This document shows positions 1 through 9,295 of a DNA stretch of 37,211 nucleotides, in pieces. How positions within the stretch are numbered: position 1 is the stretch's first letter; each line of letters starts with the position of its first letter. This stretch comes from [Limnothrix rosea] IAM M-220 (GTDB lineage: Bacteria; Cyanobacteriota; Cyanobacteriia; Cyanobacteriales; MRBY01). The notes under the pieces were generated by a model that had not been told where the DNA came from, did not search any database, and worked only from the letters and a program-made list of their open reading frames with translations. The stretch spans positions 87,817 to 125,027 of the forward strand of contig NZ_MRBY01000006.1 in the NCBI RefSeq assembly GCF_001904615.1. The letters are read 5' to 3'. The translations under genes were made by a program, and so were the position numbers.

Positions 1-252
1 TCGAAGAATTGGCCGTAATGTTCGAAGAATTGGCCGTAATATTCGAGCTATTAGCGGTGATGTTCGAAGAGTTGGCCGTAATATTCGAGCTATTAGCGGT
101 GATGTTCGAAGAATTGGCCGTGATGTTCGAAGAATTCGCTGTGATGTTCGAGCTATTAGCCGTGATGTTCGAAGAGTTGGCCGTAATATTCGAGCTATTA
201 GCCGTGATGTTCGAAGAATTGGCCGTAATGTTCGAGCTATTAGCGGTGATGT
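1..252 (-). repeat. Tandem 21-bp repeat encoding 12 identical SNITANS heptads of the adhesin stalk
   Basis: Twelve contiguous 21-bp units fill this stretch in perfect register and continue beyond the window; a variant thirteenth (RISTNSS) starts the array at about 253-273. All twelve encode the same heptad, yet the DNA differs at silent positions. Units fall into two classes by serine codon, TCT or AGC, arranged mostly alternately, which suggests partial duplication as 42-bp dimers. With Ile at core position a, Asn falls at position d, resembling the asparagine-at-d layers known in trimeric autotransporter coiled coils. Confidence 0.92.
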
Positions 253-1174
253 TCGAAGAATTGGTACTAATTCTAGTAACAACAGCCCCGCCATCGGTTA
301 ACAGTTGATCAGTATCTGGATCATAAAAAATGATTTCATCATTATCCACATCAGCTGTAGCATCATCGCCTAAACCCGGAAGAAAGTAATCACTTGCTCC
401 AGCTGCACCAACAACAACCTCATTGGCACCAGCTGTGACTCCTGAACCAATGGCAATACCGTTCACTCCAGTTACGGAAGAACCTTGTCCAATGGCTACA
501 CCTTGATCCCCTGCTCCTGAAGCAGAAGCCCCTTCTCCAATTACAGTAGCGTTTTCGGCTCCAGCCGCAATATTTGTATTTGCACCTATTGCCGTACCAT
601 TATTACCTCGTGCGTTTGCATCAAAGCCCAGAGACGTTGCGTTTGAGTTGCCGCCAGTATTTCCTGCATTCGCTTCAGCACCAATTGCCGTATTTTGCGT
701 GCCACCAGTTGGAGCTGTGGCATTAAAACCAACGGCTGTTGAGTTCTCTCCTCTTGCATCACTTTGACTACCAACAGCTGTTGCTTGAACTGCATCTGCC
801 GTTGAATTTCGACCAAGAGCTGTAGCATCCTCTTGGTTAGCTAGAGAACTCTGACCAACAGCAGTCGTATCTAAAGCACTAGCCTCTGAATCTTGGCCAA
901 TAGCTGTTGCATTATCAGCTGTAGCTCCTGAATTCCGTCCAACAGCTGTGGCTCTAGCTCCTGTTGCCTGAGCCCCCCTGCCAATAGCTGTTGCGGAACC
1001 TCCATTAGCAGTAGCACCAATACCACAAGCTAAATTCGTATCCGTATTATTAGCTGCGCCACCTGTAGTATCAGTTCCATCGGTGGCTGTTCCGTCCCCA
1101 TTAGTATCGAGAAGACAAACTTCAGCTTGGGCTGGTTTACTCGAAGGCAGAATCACCCCCGATAGAGCTAACAT
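1..1174 (-). CDS. Trimeric autotransporter adhesin (YadA/Hia-like), N-terminal part, 3' end outside window, leader disrupted
   Basis: The minus strand reads open from about 1213 to the left edge. It shows a hydrophobic leader ending in a Gln-Ala cleavage-like site (KPAQA/E), then about ten degenerate 14-16-residue repeats of the type ATAIGxxAxA, the hallmark of the left-handed beta-roll head of YadA-type adhesins. An acidic linker (DNDEIIFYDPDTDQ) follows, then a stalk of repeated SNITANS heptads. The membrane anchor would lie beyond the window. The natural start appears to be ATG at 1231 (MKPQI), but codon 6 is TAA (1216-1214). The first in-frame ATG after that is at 1174 and leaves a shortened leader without basic residues. 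Such proteins are homotrimeric outer-membrane adhesins. I infer either a recent nonsense mutation (a CAA-to-TAA change would fit) or a sequencing error. Confidence 0.8.
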   Translation of the reverse strand, partial: MLALSGVILPSSKPAQAEVCLLDTNGDGTATDGTDTTGGAANNTDTNLACGIGATANGGSATAIGRGAQATGARATAVGRNSGATADNATAIGQDSEASALDTTAVGQSSLANQEDATALGRNSTADAVQATAVGSQSDARGENSTAVGFNATAPTGGTQNTAIGAEANAGNTGGNSNATSLGFDANARGNNGTAIGANTNIAAGAENATVIGEGASASGAGDQGVAIGQGSSVTGVNGIAIGSGVTAGANEVVVGAAGASDYFLPGLGDDATADVDNDEIIFYDPDTDQLLTDGGAVVTRISTNSSNITANSSNITANSSNITANSSNITANSSNITANSSNITANSSNITANSSNITANSSNITANSSNITANSSNITANSSNITANSS

Positions 1175-1231
1175 CAAAGTTAGAGCCGGGCTGGCGATCA
1201 GAGTAAACCGAAATTAAATTTGTGGCTTCAT

Positions 1232-2865: not shown

Positions 2866-4326
2866 TTACTCTAAGCTGGCCATGCCGTCAGCGTAGAGCT
2901 TGCGGGCATAATCAGTCCAAGTACCCTGTCCCCAGTAACGGAAACAGCTAGTTTCCACAAGCATTAAATATAGCAACGAGCGTTGATAGGCTTCAGTTTT
3001 GGTGACGCTTGGATCTTCTGCAACCAGACGATCATACTTTTCGTGGAACTTGGCACTCAGTTCGTTCATGGGCTCAAGGACATTTTCATAGCCCTTCACC
3101 CAACTCAAATCGTTAGTCCAAGATGCGCCATCCATATGGAATTGGTGGTCGTTGGCGTTGAGGTCGGCGATCGCCGCTTCCACTTTTTCAGTTGTGGCAG
3201 ACGTAGGATCAACAAGATTCCAAATTTTAGACTGACCAACGGCCTGACAAACCGGATAATCCGCTTCAGTAATACCAGCCGCATCAAGCAGCTCAAGGTA
3301 TTCAGTGCCATTAAAACCAACAACACTGCTGTCATTTTTAATCTCGTGCCAAGCAGGATTGTAACCACCGGGAAACTCATTCATCATCACGCCACCATTT
3401 TCACCGTCGGCGATTTGGCTGACAAGACAAGGCACTTCTTTACCACCTAGTTGTTGGCGGCCACGGCTTTTCGCTTCATAGTAAGGTTGCATCTGCGCCA
3501 CAAGTTTCGTATCAGAACCTTGGGTTTTAATCAGCGCTGTAATACTAATTTCTTCGCCACGGGAATTACGGGCAAGTAAACGATTAGGCACATATTTTTC
3601 GTCTTGGGTAAGACCAGAACCATCAAGGTGCTCCACCGAAGCTTCCTGGACTAAAAGCCAGCGATAGCCACATTCTTTAAGAGCTTTAACATATTCATAG
3701 AGCGCATCGGGATGATTAGGTAGGTGCATTTCTGGCGGCGAAAAACCTTTCACACGCTTAAGCGCTTCAACACCAAAAATCTCTGCGAAATAATGTTGCC
3801 AAGCTTGAATTTGCAGCTTTAGATCAGGAATGGGCGTTGAAGTGGCGACGGCGTGACTCCACATCGTACCGAGCCATTCGACGTAAGGCTGATAAGTCTT
3901 ATCAACGGTGATTTTCTTCAGATTGTCGATCACATCATGACGACCCATCTGCTTTAAACCCCACAGCAAATTGCCGGAATAGTCGAGCATAATCCTTGGG
4001 CTGCAACCCGCTGCGACAAGTTCGGGAATAAAGTCACCCATACGGCTATAACACCACGCAAAAACAGTCGCGTTATGGTTGTCCCCGTCGTGGGGATTTT
4101 CCATCATGTGCTGGAGGTTGCAAATAAGCGACCCGTTTTCCCCTGCGGGAATGGTGGGTTGGTGCATGTGTAGCGCACAGGCAAATCCGGCCTGAATTTG
4201 ATCTAAATTGAGATCGCTACGGTCTACAAAAATTGTTTCGTTGTGGTTCACAATGTCAGCAATTTCTTGCTCTTGCCCGCACACATGGGGCAGATTTGTG
4301 GATGTGGAGGAGAATGTCGCAACCAT
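2866..4326 (-). CDS. Glycoside hydrolase family 57-like protein
   Basis: GH57 enzymes are retaining alpha-glucan hydrolases or transferases (amylases, branching enzymes, pullulanases). This 486-residue protein has no signal peptide, so it is probably cytoplasmic and may act on glycogen. The HMHQP motif (residues 53-57) is conserved region 1 of the family. GFSPPEMHLP (Glu199) followed by a GYRWLLVQEAS strand has the layout of the region containing the catalytic glutamate in short GH57 members. I cannot identify the acid/base Asp with certainty, and substrate specificity cannot be read from sequence. It is monocistronic, with its own upstream AT-rich region and a hairpin repeat downstream. Confidence 0.8.
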   Translation of the reverse strand: MVATFSSTSTNLPHVCGQEQEIADIVNHNETIFVDRSDLNLDQIQAGFACALHMHQPTIPAGENGSLICNLQHMMENPHDGDNHNATVFAWCYSRMGDFIPELVAAGCSPRIMLDYSGNLLWGLKQMGRHDVIDNLKKITVDKTYQPYVEWLGTMWSHAVATSTPIPDLKLQIQAWQHYFAEIFGVEALKRVKGFSPPEMHLPNHPDALYEYVKALKECGYRWLLVQEASVEHLDGSGLTQDEKYVPNRLLARNSRGEEISITALIKTQGSDTKLVAQMQPYYEAKSRGRQQLGGKEVPCLVSQIADGENGGVMMNEFPGGYNPAWHEIKNDSSVVGFNGTEYLELLDAAGITEADYPVCQAVGQSKIWNLVDPTSATTEKVEAAIADLNANDHQFHMDGASWTNDLSWVKGYENVLEPMNELSAKFHEKYDRLVAEDPSVTKTEAYQRSLLYLMLVETSCFRYWGQGTWTDYARKLYADGMASLE

Positions 4327-4504
4327 GTAAATTTCCTTTATATGTCTATGGTTCTACGATTTTCGAGGATAGATAAACTAAGCCAAAAATGTCGTGTGAT
4401 TTACGTTGCTCTTAATGTTATCTCAAGATTTCAATTGATTAGTTTAAGTTTTAGTACGCTGTGTTATTATTCGCTAACCTTATTAATGAATGAGGCTGAG
4501 GAAT

Positions 4505-4528
4505 AAAAAAGAGCCTCCTAGGAGACTC
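4505..4528 (-). terminator. Rho-independent terminator of the ndhAIGE operon
   Basis: On the minus strand the stem GAG-CTCC pairs with GGAG-CTC around a tight central CTAG, with one internal mismatch, and is followed by six T residues (A run at 4505-4510 on the plus strand). It lies about 70 bases after the ndhE stop and before the GH57 gene, so it separates the two minus-strand units. Confidence 0.65.
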
Positions 4529-4597
4529 ACTAAGTAGATATGTTTTGAGAGAAAGGCGATCGCCGCCTTTATTTTTCAGGGATTTACTATGGGAGAT

Positions 4598-4909
4598 TTA
4601 CCATTTGAGGAGATTAAACTGCTCCATATCAATGGTGTTGCGATTACGGTAGATTGCGAGAATAATGGCGAGGCCAACGGCCGCCTCTGCCGCTGCCACA
4701 GTCAAAACGAAGACCGTAAAAACCTGACCTTTAATTTCACCGGGATCGAGGAAATTTGAGAACCCCATAAAGTTCAAGTTGACAGAATTTAGTAATAATT
4801 CAATGGACATTAGGACTCGTACAGCATTCCGACTAGTCACCAAGCCATAGATACCGATACAAAAAAGAGCTGCTGCGAGGACAAGAATATATTCGAGTTG
4901 AATTTGCAT
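4598..4909 (-). CDS. ndhE: NAD(P)H-quinone oxidoreductase subunit 4L, NdhE (NuoK-like)
   Basis: Small membrane subunit of the NDH-1 proton-pumping module in the thylakoid membrane, serving respiration, cyclic electron flow and CO2 uptake. The 103-residue protein matches the usual NuoK length and has three hydrophobic helices. Conserved glutamates are visible in [14 protein letters not shown] and in [17 protein letters not shown], the pair implicated in proton transfer in NuoK. It is the last gene of the ndhAIGE operon, 14 bases after ndhG, and ends before a hairpin terminator. Confidence 0.95.
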
Positions 4910-7403: not shown

Positions 7404-7796
7404 ATCGGTTTATCTATCCTGCTCATTGAGTTCCGACAATTGATACCAGAAACAATGGTTTTTAGAAAATTTACGTTACCGATTTAGTATATCGTTGTTC
7501 CGCTCGTGACAACTCCCTTCGTGAAACAGTTCTAGGATTTGCTTAGGTGTCTTTAAATTAGAAATAGACAAAAAAACTAGTGAAAAGCGCCGAACTTATC
7601 AGGATTTAGGGCATTTCATCTGGAAAACAGGGTAAATAACAGGGCGATCGCCCGTTAGTCAATTAATCATACTAATCAAATAAATTAGTGATTTAAAAGA
7701 CTGACGATATTCGATAGCTTTTGAAAAGCTGGAAACTTTTTTGTCATTTTCACCATCTTTAAAAAGTAATGCCATTGGCACATCAAACTTTCGAGC
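7404..7796. other. 393-bp divergent intergenic region between ndhA and the DUF928 pair
   Basis: AT-rich, with no convincing frame on either strand. It holds one HIP1 palindrome inside a longer inverted sequence (GGGCGATCGCCCG, about 7642-7654). It must contain the promoters for both divergent units, but I see no clear -35/-10 pair. Confidence 0.5.
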
Positions 7797-8486
7797 ATGA
7801 ATAATTCTTTTTTACACAACATTTCTCTCTCAAATCCCCTGAAGCGTTTTTGGCCCATCACATCTTTTGTGGGTGTGCTAACGATGCTTGGCGCGATGAG
7901 TGCTCCCGCCTCTGCTGCTTGTCTGACGAATGTTGAGGATTTTGACTTCGTCCCCAGTGGTGCAAGTCAGCAAGTCATCGCAGAATACCCACGTATGTTT
8001 TGGCGTTTGGAAAATCATCAAGCTGAAAATTTACAAATCAGCGTTACAGATGAAAATGCACGAGAACTTTATTTTTGGGACTATCGGTTAAGTCAAAGTA
8101 ATGCCGAAGACTCGGATGGAGGAATGGATTTGATGTCGGTGCAACCATCTCCAAATTTAGCAGTTTCGCCCATGACAGTCGGCTCTGTACAAAATTGGCA
8201 ACTGACGTTGATTTGTGATTACGGCGATCGCACCAAAGACATTGTCATTAATCAAAAAATTGAACGTATTGCAGTTGAAGAATCCCTTAAAAACTCGATT
8301 CAGGCGTTAGCAACCCCCGACAAGATTGAACTTTACCTTACCCAAGGTTTAATCAATAGCGCTTTGGTTGAATTTATGTATTGGCAAGATGAACCATCGA
8401 CTGAATCCACCACAGAATCAACATCAATTGTTCACAAAAACTGGCTGGACTTCCAAAGAAAAGCGGGCATAATAGAATCACAATAA
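7797..8486 (+). CDS. Secreted DUF928-like protein
   Basis: Unknown function. The 229-residue protein has an N-terminal signal peptide: basic NPLKRFW, a hydrophobic core (about 22-36) and a cleavage-like APASA/A near residue 41. The mature part contains an FWRLENHQAENLQISVTDE stretch and a C-terminal half with helices, which resembles cyanobacterial DUF928 proteins more weakly than the next gene does. It is followed after 32 bases by a clear DUF928 paralogue, so the two probably form one transcription unit and may act together in the periplasm or cell envelope. That pairing is inference; no catalytic motif is visible. Confidence 0.7.
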   Translation: MNNSFLHNISLSNPLKRFWPITSFVGVLTMLGAMSAPASAACLTNVEDFDFVPSGASQQVIAEYPRMFWRLENHQAENLQISVTDENARELYFWDYRLSQSNAEDSDGGMDLMSVQPSPNLAVSPMTVGSVQNWQLTLICDYGDRTKDIVINQKIERIAVEESLKNSIQALATPDKIELYLTQGLINSALVEFMYWQDEPSTESTTESTSIVHKNWLDFQRKAGIIESQ

Positions 8487-8518
8487 TCAGGCTCGCTGCA
8501 CTACTTTCACGACTTACC

Positions 8519-9295
8519 ATGAGTAACCAAAATTTCCATTTCACCCGTGCGATCAAGACTTTACTGACGGCCTCAGGGTTGGCGGCGATCGCCCTGTGTA
8601 CCACCGTGGTAAATGCTTCTGCCCAGAACATCCCTAAAGTCTGGGAAAGCCAGAAGTACCAACCTCCCTTTGGATTGCAATCTCCCGGCAATTTATCCCA
8701 AGGTGGCACACGCTCTGGTGCCGAGGCCATCGCAAACCCGAAATTCATTCCGTTGGTTCCCCAAAATAACAACTTTGGTGTCACCACAGCTGCCTATCCA
8801 AGCATCCTTGTTTACGTGGCAGACTATGCGGAACAAGCGAACGTTGATACCTTAGAATTTTTACTTCTAGATGACGAAGGCAACGAAGTTTATCGAGCGA
8901 GATTTGCTGTAGAACTGACCGGCCAGCTTCTACGTATCGACTTACCTAAACATGCTGGTTTAGCGGCACTCGAAGAAGGGAAAGATTATCTATGGTTATT
9001 GGAAGGATTTACCCAAGACTTCACACTATCGGAAACCCTCTTTACCCACGGTTGGATTCGCCGCGTCCCTCCAACGGCATCATTAGTTGAAGATTTAGAA
9101 ACAAGCTCTTCAGCTCAGGAAGTCGCCAATGCTTACATTAATGAACAAATTTGGTACGACGCGATCGCCAAGCTAGAAGAGGGATTTATTAGTGGCACTG
9201 CTTCAGAGCAAATTATGGAACAATGGGAGGCTCTGCTCAGTTCTGCTGGCGTTAATGATGTTGCCTTAGATACCAGCGCCATGCTTGCAGACTAG
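8519..9295 (+). CDS. Secreted DUF928 domain protein
   Basis: A 258-residue exported protein. The signal peptide spans roughly residues 1-36 with a hydrophobic core (LAAIALCTTVV) and an ASAQN cleavage region. DUF928 features follow: a GTRSG motif, a LVPQNNNFGVTTAAYPSILVYV segment summarised by its key LVPxNxxGxT and YP elements, the acidic LLLDDEGNEVYRARF strand, and a conserved ending HGWIRR. DUF928 is widespread in cyanobacteria, often beside CHASE2 or sensor genes, with no established function. Here it pairs with the shorter upstream paralogue. Transcription should stop at the hairpin at 9349-9384. Confidence 0.82.
   Translation: MSNQNFHFTRAIKTLLTASGLAAIALCTTVVNASAQNIPKVWESQKYQPPFGLQSPGNLSQGGTRSGAEAIANPKFIPLVPQNNNFGVTTAAYPSILVYVADYAEQANVDTLEFLLLDDEGNEVYRARFAVELTGQLLRIDLPKHAGLAALEEGKDYLWLLEGFTQDFTLSETLFTHGWIRRVPPTASLVEDLETSSSAQEVANAYINEQIWYDAIAKLEEGFISGTASEQIMEQWEALLSSAGVNDVALDTSAMLAD

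Follow-up and report, generated by a model that had tools for sequence, protein, structure and literature searches.

An asparagine-core adhesin stalk in [Limnothrix rosea] and its DUF2827 neighbors, candidate glycosyltransferases of repetitive fibers

At the very start of a 37,211-nucleotide stretch of [Limnothrix rosea] IAM M-220 contig NZ_MRBY01000006.1 (here referred to as the window), the minus strand encodes one heptad, SNITANS, over and over again in varying codons. What protein does this array belong to, and do the genes beside it serve that protein? Our preferred reading, to which we assign a probability of roughly one-half on the basis of sequence comparisons and a structural model, is that the array forms the stalk of a trimeric autotransporter adhesin (TAA) of a cyanobacterium, encoded with a dedicated modification cassette, and that DUF2827 proteins glycosylate repetitive trimeric fibers, in this case the stalk. 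The features of the locus are listed in Table 1.

Table 1. Features of the adhesin locus (L003 coordinates lie outside the window)
Feature	Location	Strand	Evidence or remark
5' part of the TAA gene	window 2..1231	minus	Extends out of the window and across a 100-N gap as far as an anchor ending at L003:6553
Start ATG and MKPQI (conserved-looking), then in-frame TAA at 1216-1214	window 1214..1231	minus	G244 open at the same point
Signal-peptide-like hydrophobic segment with AQA at its end; TTG 1177 and ATG 1174 as candidate internal start codons	window 1124..1213	minus	Putative
YadA head repeats, approximate limits	window 430..1027	minus	PF05658, 87.1 bits (cut-off 25), 6 stretches
Segment resembling a connector or neck, joining head to stalk (limits approximate)	window 272..429	minus	Translation; putative
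Stalk (coiled coil), one ISTN heptad followed by twelve SNITANS repeats; truncated at the gap	window 1..271	minus	Ile at a, Asn at d, run of 13 heptads
Two DUF2827 genes, directly downstream of the TAA gene	L003:4952-6103 and 3642-4829	same as TAA gene	246.9 and 232 bits (cut-off 25)
Sulfotransferase-like gene, 236 residues, downstream	L003:2804-3514	same as TAA gene	Pfam, 22 bits

A repetitive stalk gene interrupted by an assembly gap

An earlier note, made from the window sequence, had taken the gene for a trimeric autotransporter, and domain searches bore this out: in addition to the PF05658 head repeats, a YadA-type anchor was located downstream of the array, past the gap (YadA_anchor, cut-off 22.7; 29.3 bits when the genome was scanned and 26.3 bits in a separate scan). 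These results support a TAA with head, stalk, and anchor, whose trimeric state is predicted from sequence. In phmmer searches, the stalk matched M protein best (E = 9.8e-5), followed by tail needle gp26 (2.6e-4), with weaker matches to BpaC, EibD, and UspA1 (E = 0.08 to 1.2). On the window side, the stalk was 44% Ser+Thr and 27% Asn, with about 1% charged residues. No RNA family reached its gathering score within the window. A tandem pair of DUF928 genes was present at window positions 7797 to 9295.

On the minus strand, positions 1 to 264 of the window are built from 21-bp units in tandem (12.6 copies by TRF; score, 283) that translate into twelve contiguous SNITANS heptads; a longer period of 105 bp was also reported (2.4 copies, score 428). 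The 100 N (L003:7218-7317) directly precede window base 1 and lie inside the array, whose start at that base is an assembly artifact and not a biological end. Past the gap and on the same strand, the array resumes with eight more SNITANS heptads, one ITALSTN, one ITANSSN, and alternating IATNSTN and ISTNSSN heptads, after which the anchor follows. Its preferred longer period there is 42 (or 63) bp, versus 105 bp on the window side. The heptad counts given here are those on either side of the gap, which conceals the real copy number.

When the array is read in the register ITANSSN, the window side holds 11 complete heptads in a row, and all of these, like the first 8 past the gap, share one and the same protein sequence. 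These 19 and one further copy are encoded by 9 different 21-mers, and the serine at position e is specified by TCT in 10 cases and by AGC in 10. The silent variation and the two serine codon classes described in the earlier note were thus recovered in this set of 20 heptads. Codon comparison of the 20 heptads gave 548 synonymous and 0 non-synonymous differences, the zero arising by construction because identical heptads had been selected. The unselected evidence for a fixed protein is the uninterrupted runs of 11 and 8 heptads with differing codons, which agree with the proposal that selection acts on the protein while the DNA drifts. The proposed growth by copying of 42-bp dimers is borne out in part, with a longer period of 42 (or 63) bp past the gap and 105 bp on the window side; these longer periods fit growth by copying of multi-heptad blocks.

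This copy of the gene contains an in-frame stop codon after the five codons MKPQI, at a point where the G244 homologue, from a relative in the same genus, is open. The stop may mean that translation begins at an internal TTG or ATG, that the gene has been silenced, or that a base was called wrongly. Silencing, with the array now drifting, is suggested by the stop and by the open frame of G244, but the 392-codon frame up to the gap and the frame past it are both open, the contiguous heptads are the same in protein while their codons differ, and an internal start or an assembly error would account for the stop as well. We regard a silenced copy as unlikely. The arguments from DUF2827 linkage and fold given below are independent of the window's own TAA copy.

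Asparagine at position d in this and related stalks

In the stalk, Ile at a and Asn at d recur every seven residues, without interruption for 13 heptads up to the gap and for 8 and 9 heptads past it, which confirms the assignment made in the earlier note. Its stronger statement, that every d layer seen is Asn, applies to the twelve SNITANS heptads of the window and does not extend to the remainder, in which ITALSTN places Leu at d and INEAFDE, near the anchor, places Ala. The heptads past the window edge nonetheless carry mostly Asn at d and are not dominated by hydrophobic residues.

Relatives in the genus vary in repeat sequence, yet their predicted stalks keep the Asn-at-d rule. The repeat is STNIVSNATDIATN in G083 (run of 17 heptads) and STNIVSNANDIATN in G058 (13 heptads), and the G246 stalk has a 13-heptad run located at a contig end. 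In G244, ISVNSSS/ISANSSS/ISTNSAS heptads form three successive runs, each in its own reading frame, of 97, 112, and 49 heptads. The G244 TAA (L134:2970-8896) accordingly spans about 258 IxxN heptads over three frames, in a genome without DUF2827; sequencing errors may account for the two frame changes, near L134:5206-5249 and 7559-7602. By comparison, a scan of 21 other stretches with TAAs (16 from Burkholderia, with 15 TAAs, and 5 from other members of the phylum; L136 was outside the scan) gave maximum [ILV]xxN runs of 1 to 3, all frames considered. Frames up to 200 residues long were omitted from the scan, so that the run of G246 went unseen.

According to excerpts of PMC6839023, Asn-at-d layers that bind chloride are known in UspA1, EibD, SadA, and AtaA, with (I/V)xxN heptads, and a solved UspA1 fragment has eight such layers. 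The layer itself is known in TAAs; the length and uniformity of the stalk are what is unusual here, and the suggestion that an all-Asn stalk would be unusual stands in this narrower form. In designed peptides, two Asn-at-d layers already prevented trimers in solution (excerpts of PMC12933892). The all-Asn stalk is thus a natural test of polar-core tolerance in coiled coils.

DUF2827 beside adhesins and viral fibers

Both DUF2827 (PF10933) genes next to the window exceeded the Pfam cut-off. In G083 and G058, the gene order is DUF2827, TAA, and sulfotransferase-like gene. Among 244 genomes of the phylum, DUF2827 was found in 3 and YadA_anchor in 9; all three DUF2827 genomes had both, 0.5 to 1.1 kb apart. 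That these are cyanobacteria agrees with a photosystem II protein, Psb27, in G083 and with ndh-type genes in the window. Five of the six genomes surveyed in the genus carried TAAs, and three carried DUF2827. A promoter and terminator scan of the cassette yielded fewer sites than shuffled sequences and gave no usable signal.

The small downstream gene was present in 3 of the 244 genomes, namely, the same three that carry DUF2827. Its assignment as a true sulfotransferase was rejected, as the Pfam score of 22 bits is below the cut-off of 27 and there were only four PDB matches (E = 0.39 to 0.69).

G244 lacks DUF2827, although its homologous TAA has a longer, Ser-rich Asn-at-d stalk, and no Pfam glycosyltransferase was matched in the 10 neighboring ORFs scanned within 18 kb of that TAA. 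This is the strongest result against the glycosylation model. Judging from sequence matches, other TAAs of the genus have different glycosyltransferases nearby: a second TAA of G058 (L022:4900-8280), with a collagen-like GATGATGDTGPTGPQGQQGEQGIQ stalk, is followed by a GT2-type glycosyltransferase gene, and near the G246 TAA lies a gene (L133:2591-9877) for a 2428-residue protein matching TPR, GT9, GT1, and FkbM methyltransferase.

The fold was predicted for a phage member of the family, L033 (pLDDT, 93.9; pTM, 0.91; 53-sequence alignment). The model has two Rossmann-like domains and matches known GT-B enzymes over its whole length. Its best VIA match was BshA (6d9t; Z, 24.4; rmsd, 3.9; 324 aligned of 389 residues). 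It also matched SdgB, which was crystallized with an SD peptide (Z, 20.1; rmsd, 4.3; 327 aligned), and, in Foldseek, the O-GlcNAc transferase GtfA (E = 1.1e-6), at 9 to 11% sequence identity to SdgB/GtfA. SdgB and GtfA are transferases that modify repeat adhesins in Gram-positive systems. BshA, MshA, and WaaG, whose folds serve polysaccharide and small-molecule synthesis, were among the fold matches listed, and no HMW1C title was among the 50 matches listed per search. A shared GT-B fold is insufficient to establish the function of DUF2827. At the sequence level, Pfam glycosyltransferase models matched 0 of 14 DUF2827 proteins, 5 of 6 had no match in PHROGs (the sixth had two weak matches; best E, 0.031), and a PDB search with the DUF2827 profile returned one chance match (E = 1.8). 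The cyanobacterial DUF2827 proteins align with those of Burkholderia and, by eye, share several of the viral invariants (an E-x6-K pair, His-Asn, Gly, and a Tyr near the C terminus), but not Trp.

A tblastn search with one cyanobacterial DUF2827 query matched 18 of 72,556 plasmid records, all from Burkholderia or Caballeronia. Thirteen of these records were retrieved, and nine were searched for both DUF2827 and the YadA anchor. In eight of the nine (W01-W04 and W06-W09), an anchor lay within 3 kb of DUF2827, a count of related and therefore not independent loci; the ninth, W05 (Caballeronia), had DUF2827 and no YadA anchor. A tenth record, W11, also lacked the anchor, and its best DUF2827 match was in two pieces with transposase genes flanking. 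Three replicons with a DUF2827/anchor pair are larger than 2 Mb; under random placement, each of them gave a P value of 0.008 to 0.011, these values again not being independent. In the Caballeronia locus L028, no TAA or repetitive fiber was recognized near DUF2827, ORF calling being poor there.

The linked adhesins are also distinctive in composition. The eight TAAs beside DUF2827 had a median Ser+Thr fraction of 0.436, versus 0.234 for all 14 other anchor-bearing frames of the same records (one-sided P = 0.0064; P = 0.016 without two short frames), and charged residues were correspondingly 0.037 versus 0.089 (P = 0.0019). Two Ser/Thr-rich TAAs do not adjoin DUF2827, i.e., L120 (Ser+Thr, 0.488) and W06:130069 (0.487; separated from the DUF2827 genes by about 12 kb); for these, action of DUF2827 in trans is possible. 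The Burkholderia TAA frames L124, L125, L126, and L127, which adjoin DUF2827, are 2516 to 4172 residues long, with 43 to 47% Ser+Thr and 1 to 4% charged residues.

In viral contigs, a profile search detected 82 DUF2827 relatives, of which 80 were kept, giving 48 nonredundant loci by our own clustering. The phage link of DUF2827 rests on these uncultured viral contigs, because tblastn with the one cyanobacterial query matched 0 of 50,697 named phage records. A strongly repetitive ORF was present within 3 kb of DUF2827 in 20 of the 48 loci (22 at a laxer threshold) and absent from the other 28. The repeats were of several kinds (collagen-like, SLDT/SLST coiled coils, SGTSG, and TPT). The share of repetitive ORFs was 12.3% at 0 to 1 kb, 6.1% at 1 to 2 kb, 15.6% at 2 to 3 kb, and 9.5% at 3 to 4.5 kb, and it was 1.7, 3.9, and 2.0% farther out, to 11 kb. 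Extreme SGTSG, TPTSS, or NGTSG repeats near DUF2827 were seen in the viral ORFs L047:12233-15301, L099:6572-9625, L064:6745-9522, and L071:6396-9356. The nearest 5' ORF, which was on the strand of DUF2827 in 41 of 45 cases, had a median Ser+Thr fraction of 0.173 (45 ORFs), versus 0.121 for the rest (464 ORFs; P = 1.6e-4); the nearest 3' ORF was not Ser/Thr-rich (P = 0.91). This signal may partly reflect just a location in tail-fiber regions.

These neighborhoods bear on a plainer explanation, in which the gene encodes an ordinary long Asn-at-d TAA and the adjoining DUF2827 proteins build a surface polysaccharide, leaving the adhesin untouched. Such a role would suit the related folds of BshA, MshA, and WaaG and the presence of the G244 stalk in a genome without DUF2827; the glycosylation step is itself only inferred, and in two B. 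glumae records, a gene for a nucleotide-sugar-binding protein lies at a distance of some 10 kb. It would leave unexplained why DUF2827 accompanies TAAs in two bacterial groups, cyanobacteria and Burkholderia, and fiber genes in viral contigs, as well as the Ser/Thr bias of the linked TAAs, and no polysaccharide operon was found in four annotated Burkholderia neighborhoods of DUF2827, whose gene tables are incomplete. A polysaccharide operon as the setting of DUF2827 is weakened by these four neighborhoods, the two B. glumae records being additional to them, and we consider the polysaccharide explanation somewhat unlikely.

Proposed mechanism and relation to known systems

In the preferred reading, i.e., glycosylation of the stalk, DUF2827 would transfer a sugar from a nucleotide donor onto the stalk in the cytoplasm, before export. 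The acceptor would be Ser/Thr, with Asn less likely, because the Burkholderia TAAs linked to DUF2827 combine a high Ser/Thr content with few sequons and because the relatives lose sequons. The added sugar would make a nearly charge-free rod hydrated and stiff, and the polar Asn core would probably hold chloride, as in other TAAs. Recombination among the 21-, 42-, and 105-bp units would lengthen or shrink the array, so that stalk length varies while selection keeps the heptad.

The alternative acceptor deserves separate mention, since each SNITANS heptad contributes two N-x-S/T sequons (NIT and NSS), and DUF2827 could be an N-glycosyltransferase like HMW1C/NGT acting on a sequon array. The window-side stalk has about 27 sequons per 100 residues, and, in the excerpted text of PMC5303269, NGT/HMW1C enzymes modify TAAs, among which AtaC has 72 sequons. 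Half of the sequon asparagines here are at d, however, where they are expected to be buried; the sequon is not kept among relatives, NAT in one repeat being NAN in that of another; and the eight DUF2827-linked Burkholderia TAAs have only 0.70 to 3.35 sequons per 100 residues. N-glycosylation by DUF2827 is on these grounds quite improbable.

A wider proposal is possible but doubtful: DUF2827 would be an unrecognized glycosyltransferase family for repetitive trimeric fibers, serving bacterial TAAs (cyanobacteria and Burkholderia) as well as phage tail-fiber modules and passed between the two, and the Asn-core stalk may fold only when glycosylated. If true, this would assign a function to a family on which hardly anything has been published, and it suggests that an enzyme for coating long protein fibers is common to bacteria and phages.

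Several known systems resemble parts of the locus. UspA1, EibD, SadA, and AtaA have the same head, coiled-coil stalk, and YadA anchor, with chloride known in their (I/V)xxN heptads (excerpts of PMC6839023); unlike the UspA1 type, the stalks of this genus have runs of 13 to 112 heptads in which charged residues are few or absent, and three genomes have the DUF2827 cassette. Haemophilus Cha is likewise a TAA with perfect tandem repeats, of 28 residues each, which affect adherence (excerpts of PMC3498257). The excerpted text of PMC3404963, on a TAA cluster, contained no word starting with "glycosyl." In Kingella, Aggregatibacter, and Actinobacillus, TAAs are modified in the cytoplasm by glycosyltransferases of the HMW1C/NGT type, which in the first two genera are encoded far from the adhesin (excerpts of PMC5303269), whereas DUF2827 adjoins the TAA, has GT4-type enzymes among its fold matches, and is linked to stalks rich in Ser/Thr. 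Bacterial and phage fibers overlap in kind, because cyanophage virions carry YadA-domain structural proteins, i.e., TAA-like fibers (excerpts of PMC9146016). With SdgB/GtfA, DUF2827 would have in common the GT-B fold and a substrate among Ser-containing repetitive surface proteins, at a sequence identity of 9 to 11%.
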